Assembly (NCBI GenBank): GCA_947044405.1
Contig: CAMRHE010000655.1
Coordinates: 62,001-126,000 of the forward strand
DNA: 64,000 bases
Source of the DNA: Leptodactylus fallax
Lineage: Eukaryota; Chordata; Amphibia; Anura; Leptodactylidae
Reading direction: 5' to 3'
The notes below the pieces were generated by a model that did not search any database, was not told the origin of the DNA, and saw nothing but the letters and a program-made list of their open reading frames with translations. This document shows positions 17,176 to 56,578 of this stretch, piece after piece (positions within the stretch are counted from its first letter, which is position 1; every line of letters begins with the position of its first letter). The position numbers were made by a program, and so were the translations under genes.

Positions 17176-17540
17176 TGTGTGTTAGTAGTATGCCAAATTA
17201 GTCTTCCTCAAAAAGTAATGTCTCATAAACAATAAGAAATCAATTAAACCTACAAGAAGAGTTTATAGAGACTATGTATATAGAAAAAATAATAAATTTT
17301 ATTAATAAAATACCAAAAGCATACATATATAATATAATCATAAGATTGTGCCAACAAGCACGCAGATGGAAAACAGCGTGTACAGTTAAATGGAGTCTCA
17401 CCCTCCCCAACTTATTCAGAAACACACTCCTACAGTATAAATAGTAAAATACAAGGGTCATATAAATAACTAGACTTAAACCAAGAATCAATACTCAGAC
17501 ATAGATTTGAAGAGAATAACATACCCTGAATTATAAAAGA

Positions 17541-18650
17541 TAAGGCAGGGTTCACACTACCGTTGGAGTCCGTTATGAAGGTGTCCGTTAAAAAAAAAAA
17601 AACGGACACCTATCATAACGGACACTACCTGATGTTAGCATCAGGTAGTGTCCGTTTTTTTAAAGAGGACCTTTCATGTCACATACCGCTAGAAAGCCGA
17701 CAGCGCGCTGAATTCAGCGCACTGCCGGCTTTCCCGGTATGTGCCCCGGGGCTAGAGATATCGGCGGTGTAAGTTACATGATTTACTGTCAGAAAAGCGT
17801 TCCTGACAGTCTAGCTGCGCTGCGAGGAACGCCCTCCCTGACACTTCTCTTCGTTCAGAGACTTGTACTGAGGGGGCGTTCCTCACAGCTCAGCGTCATC
17901 GCCGGGCAGTAAGGAACGCCCCCTCTGACAGTACCCGGCTATAGACCAGAACAGAGAGAGAAGGGGGCGTTCCTTACAGCCCAGTGATGACGCTCAAGCT
18001 GTGAGGAACGCCCCCTCAGTACAGCGCTATGGACGAACGAGAAGTGTCAGGGAGGGAGTTCCTCGCAGCACCCTTCTAACAGTAAAACATGTAACTTACA
18101 CCTCCGATATCTCCAGACCCGGGGCACATACCGGGAAAGCCAGCAGTGCGCTGAATTCAGCGCGCTGTCAGCTTTCTAGCGGTATGTAAAACCGCATGTG
18201 CCTGAGGACACGAAATGTCCTCTTTAACACTGTTATTTTTTTTTTTTTTTGCTTTGTTTCTCCTTTCTGAGCATGCGCAGGGAAAGTAAACGGACATAAA
18301 ATAACGGACAGTAACTGATGGCTAACAGTTACTGTCCGTTATAAGTCCGTTACCCATAGACTTCAATGTTAAAAAAATAACGGACACTTGCTGTCCGTCA
18401 AGAATCCGTTTTTTTCAAACGGACAAAAAGTCCTGCATGTAGGATTTTTTTGTCTGTGAAAAAATAACGGACTTCTGATGGATTGGGTGTAAACGGACAC
18501 TAACGGACACAATATAAAAACCCATTGAAATGAATGGAAATTTTAACGGATTTCTGACGGTTCAACTAGTGTCCGTTGCTAAAATCTTGTAACGGACAAT
18601 AGCAATGGACACTACTGACGGACACCAACGGTAGTGTGAACGCTCCCTAA
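17541..18650. mobile_element. Hairpin-rich foldback element with AACGGACA motif, inserted in the Penelope element
   Basis: Terminal inverted repeats: left 'ggttcacactaccgttgg', right 'ccaacggtagtgtgaac'. Between them 'aacggaca'/'tgtccgtt' recurs many times and makes several perfect hairpins, for example 'cggacactacctgatg' with its inverse at 17619-17654, and 'aacggacagtaactg' with its inverse near 18302-18340. A second MITE (17660-18227) is nested inside. No ORF. The class is unknown to me. Confidence 0.65.
17660..18227. mobile_element. TTAA-flanked foldback MITE, copy A (TTAAAGAGGACCTTTCA family)
   Basis: Ends TTAAAGAGGACCTTTCATG and 'gaaatgtcctctttaa', with TTAA at both borders. Long arms include 'ataccgctagaaagccgacagcgcgctgaattcagcgc' and its inverse near 18130-18185, so nearly the whole unit is one hairpin. 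Copy B is at 56112-56578 and a shorter relative at 59404-59772. Confidence 0.8.
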
Positions 18651-18730
18651 CAGTATTAAATGCAAATGCTATCAGGGTACAATTATATAATATGTGCATG
18701 GAAAATAGACACAATATCAGATTATCAGAT

Positions 18731-18829
18731 CTCAAAAATAGTAATGAATAAAGAGATATGACATATATATAAATTAATATACCAACTCTCAAAAATAGTA
18801 ATGAGTAAAGAGATGTGACATATATATGA
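18731..18829. repeat. Short tandem duplication
   Basis: 'ctcaaaaatagtaatgaataaagagatatgacatatata' occurs twice with few changes (about 18731-18771 and 18789-18829), within the 3' part of the Penelope element. Confidence 0.75.
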
Positions 18830-18999
18830 ATAAATCAACCTAGCTTCTATATAAAAGCCTAAATGATGACCTTGAAATCCCATGCACATAAATAAATCAA
18901 TTGTACCATCTCCACATACCAGTCGCTATATTGGAAGATAATAAATGCACCTAGGAGTATGTGCCAAAGAAGAAGGGGGTGAGAAGATGCGCTGTGCCC

Positions 19000-19034
19000 G
19001 ACGCACGTTTCACCACGCCCAGTGGCTTCATCAG
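19000..19034 (-). ncRNA. Hammerhead ribozyme-like motif in Penelope element
   Basis: On the - strand the conserved hammerhead core appears in order. CUGAUGA (complement of 19028-19034) is followed by a stem II of four pairs (CCAC/GUGG, loop UGGGC) with a bulged G and a closing A-U. Then comes GAAAC (19007-19011), a two-pair helix III with tetraloop GUGC, and the cleavage triplet GUC (19000-19002). Stem I can pair GCC-U-C with GGGC, with one bulged U. Very short helix III is what is known for hammerheads in Penelope-like elements and retrozymes, and the motif is on the same strand as the Penelope RT. The A10.1-U11.1 pair and bulge are non-consensus, so activity is uncertain. Confidence 0.65.
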
Positions 19035-19665
19035 GAGGCAAAAAATACCAAAGAATTGGGGGTATAAATATAATAAAAATAAAACCAAAAGGATTCCACC
19101 TGTGACTAGGACGCTAATGCATCACATTCGGCGTGTAGGAGGTTCCGGACCAGTATATGTGATGACATCACCACGCACGCGTAACGTGACGACGTCATCG
19201 CGTAGAAACTAAATAGAGCATATAAGACTCTGTTCGCACACGCGTAAACGCGACAGAGTTACTCACAACAATATTTAAATGAATAAATATAGGTCACGGA
19301 CCCAAAAGGAAGTGATACATATATAGAAGAACAAGGAAGAGTGACAAATCACAAACACTATCCCAGAGTGAGACAAGTGAAGTATAGGACATACAGTACA
19401 TAAGGAGATTTACACAATATATCCCTAAATATGTTAATAATATATTATGATAATATTTGACATATAAATGCCAATAGCATGAAAAAGTGAATGTGAAAAA
19501 TAATTATGACCTACTACTTTTTTTTTTTTTTTTCCAAGATGGCGCCGCTGGAGTGGCTGCCAGCTACAGCAGCTCTGAGACTCTCTATCTTATTTTTCTT
19601 TCTATGTCTCGTTTTGTACCTCTCTACTTAAGGACTTTGCACTATGAAGAAACACACACAAAGAC

Positions 19666-22637
19666 TTGGACCCTTGTGATACCTTTTTTTGTTTTTTATC
19701 TGTCTTTTTGTTCTGCTTGAAAATGAGATCTTTTGTGTATGCAGACAATTCCTTTGTCTATACAAGAGAAGAAATTCTGCAGCTCAGAGGCACAGCAGGG
19801 CGGCATACCATCTGGTCACACATCCCCCGCGAGCTTTGGAGAAAGAAAAAGCGGGTGAGGGGATGCAGAGCTGGTACTCTTCAGAGGATTAAAAAGAGGC
19901 GTTACCGACCAGCTGTTCCCTCCATCATCATGGGCAATGTGAGATCTCTTGCAAACAAGATGGATGAACTAACAGCGCTCACCAGGCATCATTAGGAGTT
20001 TCGGGCGTGCAGCATGATGCTACTTACAAAGACTTGGCTCACTGAAGTTACTCCTGACCCTCTGGTCTCCTTGGATGGTTTTAAACTCCTTCGGGCAGAC
20101 AGGACAAGGGAGAGCGGTAAGAGGAAAGGAGGAGGGCTGGCAATGTTTGTGAATAATAGATGGTGTAATCCTAGGCACATTGTGATTAAGGAGCAAACTT
20201 GCTGTAAGGACATTGAACTATTAGCTGTGAGCATGAGACCTTTCTACCTACCAAGGGAACTATCACATGTCATCGTGATAGCTGCATATGTCCCCCCCTC
20301 TGCGAAAGCTGACACTGCCTGCGAGGTCCTACAAGCCACGCTGAGCCAGTTACAGTTAAAACATCCCCAGGCCCTCTTTCTTCTGTCGGGTGATTTCAAC
20401 CATGCCTCTCCATCATCCACACTGCCCAGTTTCACACAGTATGTAACCTGCCACACAAGAGACAACAAAACACTGGACTTGTTCTTTGCCAACGTGAGGG
20501 AGGCATATAACTCATCAGCCCTACCGCCCCTGGGGAGATCGGATCACAACCTAGTGCATCTCCGACCTGTGTACAAGCCACTTGTACGTAGAGAACCAGC
20601 TGTCACCCGCACAGTGAGGATATGGTCCGAGGAGAGTGATGAGGCTCTGAGGGATTGTTTTGACACAACCGCATGGGAAGTGCTGCAGGATTCTTATGGA
20701 GAAGATATAGAAGGACTCACACACTGCATAACAGACTACATTAATTTTTGTGTGGACAACACAGTACCCACAAAAGTGAGGTGCTTCTCCAACAACAAAC
20801 CATGGATTAACTCTGATATAAAAACACTACTTAAGGAGAAAAAGATGGTATTCAGGACAAGAGATAAGGAGGGGTTGAGGGAAGTACAAAAGGAGCTGAG
20901 GCATCAAATCAGGCAAGGAAAAGCCAGTTATAAGGAAAAAATGGAAAAGCAAATGGAAAGAAAAGACATAAGGGGGGTCTGGGAGGGGCTTAAGTCAATT
21001 TCGGGTCATAAACAGTCTGTCTGCCAGATTGAGGCAGATGTTAATTGGCTTAATGAACTAAACCTATTCTTCAACAGATTTGATCACACACCAGCTCCTC
21101 CCACCCCAGTATGTCCTTCAGCTTCCCCCACCACAATGACTTCTCCCCATGCGGCCACTTCCCAACAGACCAGTAAATCCAGAAATCTGTCTTTATCTGG
21201 CCACAGTCTGACCTTCACACGGGCCCAGGTGAGGAAGGAGATGAAAAAGATCAAGGCAAGGAAAGCCGCAGGGCCAGATGACATCAGTGCAAGGCTAATT
21301 AAGACTTGCGGGGACCAGCTGTGTGGTATAATTACATATATGTATAATATGAGCCTGAGGCAGGAAATAGTCCCTGAATTATGGAAATCTTCTTGTGTGG
21401 TACCAGTTCCAAAGAAACCCCACCCTATGGACCTCAACGACTACAGACCTGTAGCACTGACATCCCACCTGATGAAGATCTTGGAGAGATTGGTTCTCAC
21501 ACATCTCCGCCCTCTAGTGAGCCCCGCTATGGACCCCCCTCCAGTTTACTTATCGGCCGGGCATTGGGGTAGATGATGCCATCATCCATCTTCTGCACAG
21601 GGCTCTGTCTCACCTGGAGAAACCAGGGAACACAGTGAGAATAATGTTCTTTGACTTCTCCAGTGCTTTTAACACCATACAGCCCAGGTTATTGTGGGAC
21701 AAGCTGGGCCTTGCTGGAGTGGACCACCACCTCTCCAACTGGATCCTAGACTACCTCACAAATCGACCTCAATACGTGAGAGCCCAAGACTGTGTGTTTT
21801 TAGGTACCGTGATCTGTAATACGGGGGCACCTCAGGGTACGGTTCTCGCCCCTTTCCTCTTCACACTGTACACTGCAGATTTTAGGTGCAACTCATCCAG
21901 CTGCTACCTACAGAAGTATTCTGACAACTCTGCAATAGTGGGTCTCATCACAGATGATGATGACAGGGAGTACAGAGAACTGAACCAGGATTTTGTGGAC
22001 TGGTGCCACCGGAACCACCTGAAGATTAACGCGGGGAAGACCAAGGAGATGGTGGTGGACTTTCGCAAAGGCAGAAGCCCTCCTAAACCAGTGGACATCC
22101 TGGGGACGGGCATCGAGATTGTGAACACCTATAAGTACCTGGGTTTGCTCCTTAATAATAAGCTGGACTGGGCAGATCATATGGAGGCCCTGTACAGGAA
22201 GGGCCACAGCAGGCTCTACCTGCTTAGGAAGCTGAGAGCCTTTGGAATCCGGGGGGGCACTTCTTAGAACTTTCTTCAACTCGGTAGTGGCATCAGCCAT
22301 CTTCTTTGGAGTGGCCTGCTGGGGGAGCAGTATATCAACCAGGGACAGAAATAAACTTGACAAGCTGATTAGAAAGGCCAGCTCTGTCCTGGGGAGCCCA
22401 CTGGACTCAGTGCAGGTGGTGGGTGACAGAAGGATACTGTCCGTGGTGAGCTCCATGCAGAAGAAGAAGTCCCATCCCATGCATGAGACTGTGATAGCGC
22501 TGGGCAGTACTGTCAGTGACCGACTGCTCCACCCTAGGTGTGAGAAGGAGCGCTATCGGAAGTCTTTCCTCCCCACCGCGGTTAGGCTGTACAACCAACA
22601 CCGACCTAAGCGGAGATCATTACACACAGAGAACTGA
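19666..22637 (+). pseudogene. LINE endonuclease-reverse transcriptase ORF2, broken
   Basis: The frame opens at 19666 with a basic N-terminus and 'GNVRSLANKMDEL', the start of the APE-type endonuclease. An in-frame TAG at 19993 breaks it. It resumes to 21576 with endonuclease motifs SGDFNHA and RSDHN and the first RT motifs. An extra C in a C-run near 21535-21540 shifts the frame to 21635-22267 (RT motif A FFDFSSAFNTI, motif B GAPQGTVLAP). An extra G in the run at 22250-22256 shifts again to 22242-22637. The catalytic YADD box reads YSDN, so one metal-binding aspartate is lost. The copy cannot encode an active enzyme. Confidence 0.85.
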
Positions 22638-22815
22638 AATATCTCTCTGCCTGTTAAATCCTCCCCCCCCTCTGCTACGTCCTATCTGTCTGTCTGCTAT
22701 TAATGTAATGCCTCTCACCTTGGAACATACATGTTGTATTTGTATTTGTATCTGCTTATCTTATCTTATCTTTGCTGCTGTAACACACTGAATTTCCCCA
22801 TTGTGGGACTATTAA

Positions 22816-22843
22816 AGGACTATTATTATTATTATTATTATAA
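22816..22843. repeat. (ATT)n tail of the LINE
   Basis: Tandem ATT units follow directly on the LINE 3'UTR, as expected for the 3' tail of this family. Confidence 0.8.
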
Positions 22844-23222: not shown

Positions 23223-25142
23223 CTAAATAAAGGGTTTAAAGCTTACGGCCTCATTAAGGCCGAACGGAGATGCTGTATTTAATTGAACAATCCAGCGAGT
23301 TTCTTTACGTAGCAAAGAACGACGAACATCTCCTCCTCTACTACCAAGATGGACTTTATCAATCCCCCTAACTTGTAGGTCCCGTGGATCACATGAATGA
23401 AAGTCTTGAAAATGACGTGGTATTAGTTGGAGTTGTTCAAACTCATGAGCATTAGCTGCTGCTGTAATTTTCCAGCATGTTCCAAAACCCTTACCCGAAG
23501 CATTCTACTGGTCATACCAATATAGATAAGACCGCACGGGCATGTCGCGAAGTAAATCACTGCATCTGTACTGCACGTAATGTGGTGTACAATTTTATAC
23601 CATTTACCACCACTAGAACCCCAAAATTCAGAACTTCGCACCATATACTTGCAAGCAGCACAATGCCCACAACTGAAAGAACCCCAAAGAGGACCTCTAT
23701 CTCCGAAAATATATTTTGGGATATGAGATACATAATGGCTCCTCCTGAGTAGATCACGAAGATTCCTAGATCTATGCCACGTGATTTTAGGGCTAGATGG
23801 CAAAGTCTGTGCTAAATCATGATCTGTCAGAAGAACCTTCCAATGCTTCTGAATAATATCACGTATACCCCTCCACTGATGACTAAAGGAGGTAATGAAT
23901 CTCACATCATGTTCCTTATTTGTATGTCTACTCACTGTGTTTGCCAATAAAGAATCTCTTGGGGCGTCCTTTGCTCTCTGATACCCACGTCGCATGTCCC
24001 TCATTTTGTAACCACGGTTCAAAAACCTAGTAGTAAGATCTCTGGCTTGATCTTCGAACATATTATCATTGGAGCAGATTCGTTTCATTCTCAAAAATTG
24101 TCCAATTGGTACAGCTTGTTTGACTTTTGGATAATGAGAAGAGGTGGCATGGAGTAGAGAATTGGTCGAAGTGGATTTCCTAAAGACATACGTCACAATA
24201 TTCTGATGTTCATCACATTCCACTATGATATCGAGGAATTCCACCCTATTATGACTAACATAAGAGGTAAGACGAATGTTTAAATCATTCTGATTAAGGG
24301 AGGATAGAAATGAATACAATTGCGACGTGGAGCCCTGCCAGATATACAATATATCATCTATATATCGAGACCTCATCAGAACCCCCTCGCATCCGAAAGT
24401 GTGTTGAACCACCTCCCTCTCCCACAGCCCCAGAAACAAATTAGCGTATGAGGGCGCACAAGTCGCCCCCATAGCAGTTCCCTGGAGCTGTAGGAAAGGG
24501 CGGTCCTTAAATATAAAAAAAATATGTGTCAAAATAAATTCCAATAATTCCAAAATGAATGCTATTAAATCTGAATTTAAATCAGTGTTCCGCAGAAAAT
24601 ATTCAGATGCTCGGAGGCCCTGATGGTGTCTAATAGATGTATATAGTGACTCCACGTCGCAAGTAACAAGATACATATCTTGATCCAAATGAAGTCCATT
24701 CAGCCGACGAAGCATATCTGTAGTATCTTTTGTGTAGGAAGGTAACGTCTCTACACAGCACTGTAGATAAAAATCCACAAATTTGCAGATATTATCGCAA
24801 AGGCCCCCAATCCCCGAGACAATAGGTCTGCCCAGGAGGGTTGGAGGCACATTTGTGGATTTTGGGTAATAGATAGAACGTCGGCTGGATGGGAAACTCA
24901 ACCAACAAACCCTCCCTCAACTTTGATGTAATTATATTTTTCTCAACACCTCTATTAAGAATTTCTTCCAACTTATCCTTAAAAGAATCCAATGGGTCAT
25001 TCGTCAACCTCTGGTAACAAGCCTTATTGTTCAGCTGTCGAAAAACCTCTTTCTCATACATCTGCGCCAGCCAAATCACAACATTCCCCCCCTTGTCTGC
25101 AGGTTTAATAACCACATCCTTCATCTCTCTGAGTTGTCTCAA
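23223..25142 (-). pseudogene. Penelope-like reverse transcriptase with GIY-YIG endonuclease, broken
   Basis: Read on the - strand. 25142-24792 gives the RT N-terminal part (VVIKPADKGGNVV, then FYLLPKIHK). A frameshift near 24830 leads into a 492-codon frame (24901-23423) with motif A CDVESLYTSI, motif B QGTAMGATCAP, the catalytic YIDD, and a C-terminal GIY-YIG-type endonuclease (CPCGLIYIGMTSR). A second frameshift in an A-run at about 23470 separates the last 80 residues, which continue as HFQDFHSCDPRDLQ... to LNEAVSFKPFI and a stop at 23223. Penelope elements use these two domains for target-primed retrotransposition. The beginning of the protein is absent, and the frameshifts and 5' truncation make it nonfunctional. 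Confidence 0.85.
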
Positions 25143-25209
25143 CGCAGTTCTCTGTGTTCCGCTGAGATTATATCTAACTATCCGACTAGATAATGTGTGT
25201 TAGTAGTAT

Positions 25210-28466: not shown

Positions 28467-29763
28467 CTAAGACCCCTGGGTTATGTTGCCTTCTTGGTCA
28501 ATGTAGTGGCAGCAGGTAGGTCCCACTATCTGGCACATTCCTCCCTGAGCTGCAGTTATATAGTCTAATACCAATGTGTGTTGATTAGTGACTATTATCA
28601 ATTGATTCTGTACTGCAATAGTGGTATTAAGTATCCCCAGAATTTCCCATATTTGATCATCGAGATAGTCAGTACTTTGCACTAGCTTGTCCCACATCTG
28701 CATTATCATAGGATATATGAGTATTGTGCTTACTATCTTATTCCCAGTGCTTGACTGTACCAAGTGAGGTCTACCACTTTTCCTAGGGGTGTTGTCTGCA
28801 GCTCTCTTGTATAGAGTGTGTTTAGGTATGGATTTTGTATTTAATTAATCAACAACAAAGGTAGCAGGAGTAAGTCTTACTATTGTACATGTGCCTTTCA
28901 CTCCTACTGGTAACCACTTATACGCTCTGCTGCCACATGCCCAATACATCTGAGGAGGTAAATCGAATAAGGCTGAGTGTTGTGTACTAAGTTTGTGAAC
29001 AAGATCCACAAAGCCAGATACATTCTTTAACATACACCAAGAGGGTAGTTTACCCAGTGCTCCACAGTACCCCAGATCTCGATTTCCACAAACAAATGAA
29101 AGGTTCTTTTTCCTGTAAAGCCTTTCTTCAACCATCTCATTCACACACTCTATGTTCCCGGGTATCTCTTTACACGTATGATTGTCTCCATCTACAAATA
29201 GGTGTGCATGTTCCCAGGAAGTGTTGTGTACTGTTCTTTCTATGACTCAAGGTGCCCAAAAATCCCTCTCTTTTGTCCATCATCCCCAAAACTTATCTGT
29301 ATCCTGGTCTGGGGAATCTTACCCAATATGGTGGGGCAGTGGATTTATTCCTAAAAACCCATCTTTCTCCACTATATGCTACGTATTGGATATTCTTATT
29401 GTTTCCAGTAAGGTTACCTTGCCACCAGGGATAGTCTGTCTACCCCACTATTGGTATCCCCACAGTAACATTTGCCCATGACCTGGTCTTGAAGTCACCT
29501 GCAACATTATCTAGACACCCTGGCCACTGCAGTAGTTCATCAATAGGGACAGGTACAGCCAGGAAGGGTAAACTAGTGGAGGTAATAGGAGAGTGTGTAC
29601 AGATCCAGCAATCCTTGAGGGTATAGTTAAACCCTTCCACCATCACAAGATGGTGTTTAATAAACTTATTGTCCACTTCTTTAATTCCCTGAAGGGATTT
29701 CCAGGTCTCACTGATTGTGAGTCCTCTTAGAAGGCACAAAACAAATAATGTCCATTTCTTCAT
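28467..29763 (-). pseudogene. ERV envelope gene, broken
   Basis: It starts at 29763, overlapping the last four bases of pol, with a hydrophobic leader-like segment. Surface-subunit-like sequence covers 29763-29440 and 29144-28845, separated by stops and frameshifts. The transmembrane-subunit part at 28763-28467 keeps the disulfide motif C-x6-CC, preceded by a heptad-like stretch. Several stops and shifts, with no clear membrane anchor after them, mean it cannot be expressed as a full Env. Confidence 0.75.
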
Positions 29764-31505
29764 CCTTGCTCAGGTTCAAGGACTTTTTTACAATGAGAAG
29801 CGTGTATCCAGTTAGGCTTTCCTTCTAGTTTGACCGAAGTGGCAGTTGTCAACAGTACTTGGAAAGGGCCATCAAATCTAGGTTCAAGGGTTTTTCTGAC
29901 GTGTCTTTTTACAACCACCCAATCGCCAGGCTGCAGGCTATGTGTCCCTGAAAAATCAGAAGGGTCTGGAATAGAAGAGAACACTTGTTTATGTGTTACT
30001 TTCAGTCTTTGACACAAGCTCTGAACATAGCTGGCAGTGCTGTCATAATTGAGTTGTAAAGTCTGAGGAAAATACAACCCCAACCTAGGCACACTTCCAA
30101 ACAATATCTCAAATGGTGATAACCCTGTCCTCCTGTTAGGAGTAGTCCTTACTGAATATAAGGCTAAGGATAGGCATTCGGGCCAGGGCTTTCCTGTCTC
30201 TGCCATGGCTTTCTGAATCTTCAACTTGAGTGTACCATTCAACCTTTCAACTTTGCCTGAACTCTGAGGATGGTAGGGTGTGTGGAAAGCTTGCTCAATC
30301 CCCAATGCAGACATTATTTCTTTCATTATCTCACCTGTGAAATGTGTACCTCTGTCAGATTCTATCACCTCAGGTATCCCGAATCTGCACACAAGCTCAG
30401 ACATCAATTTCTTGGCAGTTACTTGTGCAGTCGCTTTGCTCACAGGGTAGGCCTCAGGCCATCCTGAAAACAAGTCCACACAAACTAATATGTATTCGTA
30501 CGTTCCAGACTTAGGCAACTGTATGTAATCTATTTGTATTCTCTGGAATGGGTACAGGGATTTTGGTGTACATTTGGTAGGTGTTTTAACTACCTGTCCT
30601 GGATTGTGTAGAGCACATATGTGACATGCTTTTACGTGATTACTAGCAGCCCTTCCAAAACCTGGGGCAAACCATAATTTACCCACTAATGACTCCATGG
30701 CATTTCGAGAGGCATGCACCTTACCGTAGGCCAAACCAGCCATTTGGGGGTATACTGTTGCAGGTAGACACAGTCTATCCCCCATTTTCCACGTTCCTTC
30801 ATACTCTCTGGCACCAGCCTTTTTCCATTTTTCAGTTTCCACACTGGTTACATTAGAGTACAGCCCCTTGGGGTCTGCTAGGTCAATGTCCATTTTGCTC
30901 ACCTGGTTGAGACCCTTCCATGGCAGCAGTGCTGCTGCTTTGGCTGCTGTGTCAGCCTTCTCATTTCCAAGACTTTCAGGGTCTCTTCCTTTTGTGTGAG
31001 CTCTAACTTTCACAATTGCCAACTGCTTAGGGAGCAATATGGCCTCCATCAATCGACTTACTGAATCTCCATTTTTGATTGGCTTGCCCTGTGCCGTCAG
31101 GAAGTTCCTAGACCTCCATATAGGACCATAATCATGCGCAATGCCAAAAGCATACCTGGAGTCAGTGTAAATGTTTGCTGTGCTATCTTTAGCTATTTTG
31201 AAAGCCTCTGTAAGGGCTTTCAATTCAGCTTCTTGAGCTGACATGTGTGGTGGAAGGGCTTCTTGTACTATGATGTCATGTGTAGTGACTACAGCATACC
31301 CTGTAACAAATTTGCCTTCATCTGTTAAGTACCTAGAACCATCCACAAACATCTCATAGTCAGGGTTCTGTAATGGGATATCCGTGACATGGCTGAAGCC
31401 CACCGTCTCTTGAGACATTAGGGCCACACAGTCATGCTCATGTTGACTATCAAACAAGTCATCTTCTGAGAGGGAGTTTAAAAATATCTCATCATCTGTA
31501 ACCAT
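29760..31505 (-). pseudogene. ERV pol fragment: RNase H and integrase, RT missing
   Basis: An uninterrupted 581-codon frame, but it starts in mid-gene. RNase H keeps its acidic residues (D55 in FVDG, E94, D115 in YTDSR, D185). Integrase follows: zinc-binding CHIC at residues 294-297 with an upstream His at 264 (the second His of the HHCC motif is not evident). The catalytic triad is D326, D384, E420, with the retroviral 35-residue D-E spacing. A C-terminal GPF domain near residue 555 is gamma/epsilon-type. Length and an open frame suggest a moderately young insertion, but without RT and protease it is not functional. The start at 31505 is only the first in-frame ATG, not a real initiation site. 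Confidence 0.85.
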
Positions 31506-31566
31506 GGAGACTTATACAAGTTTAACAAAATGTCCAGTTTAGGCTACACTGGAAGAAAAGAACTAT

Positions 31567-55769: not shown

Positions 55770-56115
55770 TTAAAGAAGTTGTCCCATGACCAAGATTTAT
55801 TCTCTATCCACAGGACAAGAGATATGGGATTACTAGGGAACCAATGGCTGGGACCCCAGCCAAAAATCACCAGAACAAAAGTTCCCACGTCCCCTGTTAA
55901 ATGGAGCGCCAGACGTGCTGCCACTTTATGGAGCTGCTGGATATAGCTAGGTGCTGTACACTGTTTCTCTTCAGTAGTCCTATAGAGATAAATGGGATTT
56001 AAACAGGGTGAGGAATCAGAACCCCTGTTCAAGATTCCTGTGGTGGGACGCCCAACTATCAGACACTTTTCTCCTATCCTGGGGATTAGTCTTATTCATG
56101 AGACAATCCCTTTAA
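55770..56115. mobile_element. TTAA-flanked foldback MITE
   Basis: Starts TTAAAGAAGTTGTCCCATGA and ends 'tcatgagacaatccctttaa'. Inner arms around 'cccacgtcccctgttaaat' and 'ttaaacagggtgagg' are inverted. Its right TTAA is also the left TTAA of the next element. Confidence 0.75.
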
Positions 56116-56578
56116 TGAGGACCTTTCACGTCCTCATGTATATGCGGTTTTACATACCACTAGAAAGCAGACAGCACGCTGAATTCAGTGCGCTGTCTGC
56201 TTCCCCGTTATATGCCCCGGGGCTGGAGCTATCGGTGCCGGTAGTTCTGTGCCCCATCGTCAGAAGGGCGTTTCTGACAGTCTCACTTGGCAGACTTGAC
56301 AACTCAGCGTCATCACTGGGCTGTAAGGAACGCCCCCTCTGACTATAGAGGGCTATGGAGGAGTACTGTCAGGGAGAGCGTTCCTCACAGCCAAGCGAGA
56401 CTGTCAGAAACGGCCTTCTGACGATGGGGCAGAGAACTACTGGCACCGATAGCTCCAGCCGCGGGGAACCGATAGCTCCAGCCCCGGGGCACATATCGAG
56501 AAAGCAGATAGCACGCTGTCAGCTTTCTAGCGGCGTGTAAAACAGCATATACATGAGGACGTGAAAGGTCCTCTTTAA
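56112..56578. mobile_element. TTAA-flanked foldback MITE, copy B (GAGGACCTTTCA family)
   Basis: Ends TTAATGAGGACCTTTCACG and 'gtgaaaggtcctctttaa'. The arms share 'ctagaaagc.gacagc.cgctgaattcag' with copy A (17660-18227). It abuts 55770-56115, sharing one TTAA. Confidence 0.85.

Follow-up and report, generated by a model that had tools for sequence, protein, structure and literature searches.

A decayed hammerhead ribozyme motif in the 3' pseudo-LTR of a frog Penelope-like element, and sister insertions placed as starting at its predicted cleavage site

Results

A truncated Penelope-like element and its pseudo-LTR

The window, that is, the whole stretch of 64,000 nucleotides of Leptodactylus fallax DNA that was analysed, carries on its minus strand a truncated and frameshifted Penelope-like element (PLE). 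The open reading frame (ORF) of the element (23226..25196, - strand) is truncated at its 5' end and contains two frame changes, and it joins a Penelope-type reverse transcriptase (RT) and a GIY-YIG endonuclease within one ORF, as PLEs do. The RT was matched by RVT_1 at 5.8e-07, barely past the cut-off of that model, whereas the YIG stretch was read from the translation, the two ORF pieces having no Pfam GIY-YIG match. The ORF is about 170 N-terminal residues shorter than P0002. A protein search gave 765 related proteins; among the 120 listed, four carry PF01541, and those with the best matches come from frogs (Ranitomeya imitator, 54-58% identity). The RVT_1 match and these frog relatives bear out the first-pass annotation, which had placed the hammerhead motif described below on the same strand as a Penelope RT.

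Between the ORF and the motif lies a later insertion (19535..22840, + strand, boundaries approximate), which had been described as a LINE. Beyond the cleavage site the pseudo-LTR continues over 17238..18999 (- strand) as far as the element's 3' end, and it is broken by another repeat at about 17542-18649. This repeat is a long palindromic sequence, 81% self-complementary over 532 bases, with relatives at 56112-56578. Endogenous retrovirus pieces (integrase-like and env-like frames, judged by eye) were seen upstream of the PLE copy, at 28467-31511 (- strand).

In what follows, positions in the element are counted from the predicted cut site, 0 being the first base after GUC. The motif had been placed some 0.9 kb beyond the ORF once the insertion is removed, and a like distance was found in sister copies, where the ORF ends at -889 to -940 (L020, L021, L025 and L039), at -739 (L037) or at -1016 (L038). 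In many of the sisters the pseudo-LTR unit has its 3' end at +583..+591. The order pseudo-LTR, ORF, pseudo-LTR that is typical of PLEs was recovered in one locus, L092, which reads as a pseudo-LTR piece, the ORF start, a shortened (incomplete) ORF and a pseudo-LTR piece again; the window retains just the 3' pseudo-LTR.

A TATA-like box, TATATTTATA (19063..19072, - strand), lies 38 nt ahead of CUGAUGA and may be the promoter of the pseudo-LTR. The TATA-like stretch is present in the aligned sister rows, with a spacing of 38 in L020 and of 37 in L006, a very distant PLE, and none was seen by eye at that place in L008 and L009. Its position suggests that transcripts would start at or near the hammerhead.

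The motif is a minimal type I hammerhead

The hammerhead core occupies 19000..19034 (- strand). Read from 19034 to 19000 it is CTGATGAAGCCACTGGGCGTGGTGAAACGTGCGTC, which was parsed as CTGATGA, AGCCAC, TGGGC, GTGGT, GAAAC, GTGC and GTC, namely CUGAUGA, an extra A (A10), stem II (GCCAC/GUGGU) with its UGGGC loop, GAAAC, a short stem III and GUC. Letters and order are those that the first-pass annotation had read. Stem I extends outside the coordinates given there, and the full minimal hammerhead takes in 18995..19040 (- strand). Stem I pairs UGCC-U-C (19040-19035) with GGGCA (18999-18995), giving 5 bp with one bulged U; a wobble reading of this stem was rejected on folding comparison. In hammerheads cleavage follows C17 of the GUC triplet, and it is predicted here between 19000 and 18999. 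The elements of a type I core (CUGANGA ... GAA, A15.1-U16.1 and a NUH triplet, in that order) were found in the window and in the sister copies too, some of which carry single CpG-type core changes, e.g. CTGACAA.

Stem II had been described as containing a bulged G and an A-U pair, and as weakened or else a lineage variant. That pairing folds at -3.6 kcal/mol, 3.5 worse than a reading in which one extra A stands between A9 and stem II, instead of stem II sitting directly on A9, and is followed by the pairs G-U, C-G, C-G, A-U and C-G (-7.1 kcal/mol). Most sisters have a G-C in place of the G-U of the extra-A reading, and stem II is GCCAC/GUGGC in most of them as against GCCAC/GUGGU in the window copy. 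The bulged-G description is best replaced by an extra A after CUGAUGA and a decayed G-C pair. The extra A was present in all 22 distinct motif sequences (from 32 of 70 scanned loci, some of which are the same copy), in a scan whose pattern fixes part of the core but leaves the extra A free. Each half of the earlier alternative applies to a different feature: the extra A is the norm of the lineage, and the weak pair at the foot of the stem comes from CpG decay in the window copy.

Stem III of the monomer consists of two pairs only. Its eight bases are self-complementary, ACGCGCGU in the sisters and ACGUGCGU in the window, the latter with two G-U pairs, so that the stem has the palindromic form, able to pair across two copies, of PLE hammerheads. 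The duplex formed by two such stems was calculated at -13.3 kcal/mol for the sister sequence versus -8.8 for the window copy. For a single window copy the hammerhead fold reaches -7.1, against -14.0 for the minimum-energy fold, and the 76-nt stretch around the motif is as stable as its shuffles (z -0.12).

How often such a motif arises by chance depends on how it is described. A loose hammerhead pattern is expected 0.15 times per window and had at least one match in 14 of 100 shuffles; genome-wide, it was found 3154 + 3300 times, versus 3051 + 2909 for a backward-read control (6454 vs 5960), an excess so small that raw pattern counts by themselves tell little about the number of real hammerheads. 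A structured descriptor requiring stems I, II and III, devised after the motif was known and tolerating one unpaired foot base, matched the 64-kb window only at 19034-19000 (- strand) and matched none of 400 dinucleotide shuffles. No second copy of the motif was found elsewhere in the window.

Covariance models gave nothing for the window copy and matches below threshold for its sisters. Rfam gave no match on the whole window at gathering score, and no hammerhead in 18500-19500 (1001 bases) even with E up to 10. RF00163 (Hammerhead_1) matched two sisters at full length and exactly on the motif (L035, 25.3 bits, E 0.01; L021, 21.8 bits, E 0.15), and matched, again at full length and on the motif, a locus of a second family (L113, 21.3 bits, E 0.21) and another locus (L094, 19.2 bits, E 1), all four scores lying below the gathering score of 34. 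The fifth source given to Rfam, L093, had no hammerhead match.

Sister copies conserve the motif

A 401-base query against the 2.5-Gb genome of the same frog gave 41 matches including the window's own, 40 of 106 candidates being scored. The commonest sister motif is CTGACGAAGCCACTGGGCGTGGCGAAACGCGCGTC, and in two copies, L021 and L023, neither this motif nor the six bases preceding it nor the four following it are altered. The window motif departs from this majority by three C-to-T changes, every one of them at a CpG. The core bases are conserved across the genomic copies: mean pairwise identity, measured on rows that were chosen by an in-motif pattern and therefore somewhat favour the motif, was 0.884 in the 35-nt motif and 0.887 in the 7 bases before it, above the 0.57-0.75 of the bins from -240 to -43 and the 0.79-0.83 of those from 0 to +118. 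The set comprised 15 of the 16 copies named, L054 being unmatched; copies lacking its 5' half, e.g. L027, were left out.

The window motif is therefore taken as real: a minimal hammerhead of type I, carried by the 3' pseudo-LTR of an anuran PLE that is itself truncated and frameshifted. The window copy is a decayed relic and probably a weak or inactive ribozyme.

Related motifs in other PLEs

Five PLE contigs were found among bacterial MAGs and were taken as eukaryotic contaminants. A scan for CTGANGA, a stem and GAAA found a hammerhead-like motif in three of the five (L006, L008 and L009), always on the RT strand, where 0.325 were expected by chance; the same scan found no hammerhead-like motif in L007 and L010. 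In each of the three, a single additional base (A, A and T, respectively) precedes stem II, and in L008 pieces of the ORF flank the motif on both sides. No clear cleavage triplet was seen in L006 and L008 when read as single copies, and Rfam found no hammerhead in the five contigs. When hairpins near the motif were compared among the window, L006, L008 and L009, a strong one was seen in L008 only; in that contig a 39-bp inverted repeat, 90% complementary (L008:1010-1088), lies about 57 nt before the hammerhead-like motif.

Five pattern matches in viral contigs of 55-66% G+C were taken as chance, another pattern had 0 matches there, and no PLE relative was confirmed among them. Read as a peptide, the motif had no match in 120 homologues, each covered over its first 400 residues, and none in a protein search.

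The genome of the frog holds further hammerhead-like families. Two loci, L093 and L094, represent such families with the extra A, short CTGATGAGTTTAGCGAAACATGCATGTC copies have a retrozyme-like look, and a PLE family represented by L012 gave about 500 search candidates. In the L012 family, here called family B, an ORF-like stretch ends about 0.7 kb upstream of the hammerhead.

The 5' ends of sister insertions

We then considered where insertions of the family of the window element (family A) begin. Both junction searches scored 40 of 89 to 219 candidates, and the copy list is a part of the family. From these, 56 matches were grouped by hand into 34 copies, the pieces of an interrupted copy counting as one; 27 copies have their 5' end in -400..+350 and 7 reach beyond. 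With C14, C71, C129, C298 and C397 added (C1459 reaches beyond), the 5' end was placed in 32 insertions. For C105, C182, C432, C243, C129 and C298 it was taken from the match table alone, and where a copy includes an inverted piece, the end given is that of the direct piece (C170 at 22, C300 at 73).

The ends were clustered, 18 of the 32 falling within -53..+3, where 2.2 would be expected if they were evenly spread. Most of these 18 fall inside the motif and not at the cut site. Four (C247, C291, C42 and C8) were placed at 0, with homology to the element that starts at the predicted cleavage site, and all four start GGGCATAGCGC. Given the hotspot, finding 4 of 18 ends at a preset base among 57 has P 2.4e-4; base 0 was set by the hammerhead rule, but the cluster had been spotted before the test in the same data, and correction for the choice among 57 positions gives P 0.014. 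The corrected value becomes 0.025 with three extra ends from a biased first search (C222 at -33, C116 at -11 and C227, near 733 kb, at -42), which were seen in that search alone. One more insertion, C31, starts at +1, and the inverted piece in C170 ends at +1. A further cluster of 5' ends at -43..-39 was considered as a transcription start and is suggestive only (4 of 18, P 0.067; 5 of 21 with the biased ends, P 0.032).

A 10-bp direct repeat lies two bases away from either end of the insertion in C247. Among 22 insertions inspected, direct repeats were convincing in C247 only, and none was found at C291, C42 or C8. Both C291 and C42 are attached to an inverted piece of the element. Such a piece at the 5' end of the direct piece, resembling twin priming, was seen in C291, C42, C62, C7, C32, C198, C397, C300, C170 and C14.

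The placement of the four ends varies with the reference chosen: C247 and C291 fall at 0 or -2 and C42 at 0, -5 or 16, while C8 stays at 0. A T immediately precedes the start in all four, and some sisters have GTT where others have GTC. GTT references shift the ends of C247 and C291 (to -2) and of C42 (to -5) but not that of C8. For three of the four insertions, the start is placed with a precision of about two bases.

In family B, a query starting at +60, which keeps ends at 0, replaced one from -15 that had favoured site-containing copies. Of 514 candidates, the best 40 were scored; they yielded 39 reads, each 111 bases long, and in some cases two reads are the opposite arms of a single inverted insertion. 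None of the 39 started exactly at 0, just three ending in the informative stretch -53..+3. By eye, 29 continue past -90, the left limit of the read, while L100 ends at about -24, L104 at -3 or -4 and L126 at about -46; the other seven end further upstream, are inverted or lack the site. With only three informative ends, for which 0 of 3 at the site has a probability of 0.47 under the family A rate, a start at the cut site is neither confirmed nor refuted in family B.

Discussion

The best explanation of the locus, to which we give a probability of about 0.88, is a minimal hammerhead of type I from an anuran PLE, present here as a decayed copy, together with a proposed cycle of dimer action and cleaved template. 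In the living element the hammerhead would stand at or near the start of the pseudo-LTR transcript and would recur in the pseudo-LTR that follows the ORF. Two hammerheads, whether within a single RNA or on separate ones, could share the 8-bp stem III (ACGCGCGU), which would compensate for the two-pair stem III of the monomer. PLE hammerheads are reported, by Lunse et al. in 2017, to act as dimers, and the self-complementary stem III of the frog motif fits such action. Cleavage after GUC would release an RNA starting GGGCA, and reverse transcription of this RNA from its 3' end would give an insertion that starts at the cut site.

The four ends at the cut base are a hint that self-cleaved RNA was the template. 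That the frog hammerhead cuts its RNA in the animal, and that the cut RNA sets the 5' end of a class of short insertions, which extend between the cut site and the pseudo-LTR's 3' end, is a tentative reading of genomic junctions which we hold at just under an even chance. Its strongest competitor accepts the hammerhead relic as real and ascribes the starts at the cut site to chance, or to the RT stalling on the folded ribozyme, instead of RNA cutting. This has appreciable weight, though clearly short of even odds. A stop within a structured stretch predicts what was seen for most of the 18 clustered ends, which lie within the motif; three of the four ends at 0 are uncertain by two to five bases; and the pile-up was not repeated in family B. 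The T that precedes all four starts, together with GTT in some sisters, also raised our estimate of stalling and lowered that of a cleaved template. Against stalling, an RT entering stem I from the 3' side should stop at about +5, but four ends lie at 0, where the 3' strand of stem I has already been copied.

It is highly improbable that the hammerhead is part of a retrozyme, or of some different repeat, that just happens to adjoin the Penelope element. Amphibian retrozyme type I hammerheads are abundant according to PMC7229834, and canonical-looking hammerheads do occur in the genome of the frog, but the sisters keep ORF, motif and 3' stretch in one order at a similar distance, and the motif sits within a unit whose 3' end is shared by many copies. 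The slight genome-wide excess of the loose pattern would suit a chance likeness in repeat-rich sequence, a possibility that the sister copies make very unlikely and against which stand the structured descriptor's absence from shuffles, conservation above that of the flanks, the Hammerhead_1 matches and the confinement of C-to-T changes to CpG.

The frog hammerhead is read as a kind already known. Minimal hammerheads in PLE pseudo-LTRs are established in the passages cited of PMC6155905 and PMC7761336, in agreement with what the first-pass annotation had said of Penelope-like elements, and as described there they are like the frog motif in having the type I order with a very short stem III, in lying within the pseudo-LTR and in being expected to act as dimers. 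The extra A after A9 sets the anuran subfamily apart from PLE hammerheads as these parts of the reviews describe them. The same extra A, between A9 and G10.1, is present in the plus-strand hammerhead of chrysanthemum chlorotic mottle viroid (CChMVd), a viroid ribozyme with no common origin shown, in which it moderately lowers trans-cleavage (PMC3705267, in the section cited). Replacing this A by U raised the viroid rate (PMC3705267), and its deletion is reported to have a like effect (PMC11014351). This extra-A core, shared with a viroid ribozyme, is a defined variant for assay. Amphibian retrozyme hammerheads, in the account drawn on from PMC7229834, resemble the frog motif in type I order, weak stem III and dimers, but they belong to small non-autonomous repeats.

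A closer comparison is the PAc (Poseidon) element of the green anole, for which we rely on the sections cited of PMC11167929. Like the frog element it has a pseudo-LTR hammerhead near the ORF, and its protein cuts and extends both strands, with which the inverted segments of the frog insertions fit. The anole hammerhead cleaves only in the presence of protein, mutating the ribozyme leaves insertion in vitro normal, and RNA-seq contained no reads that start or end at the site. In PAc the cut site lies 26 bp inside the ORF and is without an RNA-seq trace of cleavage, whereas in the frog some insertions are placed as starting at the cut site. We found no published report of genomic insertions starting at the cut site, in a search that stopped short of the original PLE-hammerhead papers, and the novelty of these junctions is unproven.

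The junctions bear on an open question, since the 2020 review PMC7761336, in the passage cited, terms the in-animal role of PLE hammerheads a mystery. The one PLE examined in vitro could do without the cut, according to the cited part of PMC11167929. If the cleaved-template reading is true, the motif would lie at the very start of pseudo-LTR transcripts, so that cleavage would strip the capped leader too. Genomic junctions at the cut site would then be a standing record of germ-line cleavage, readable in any frog genome and testable by counting.
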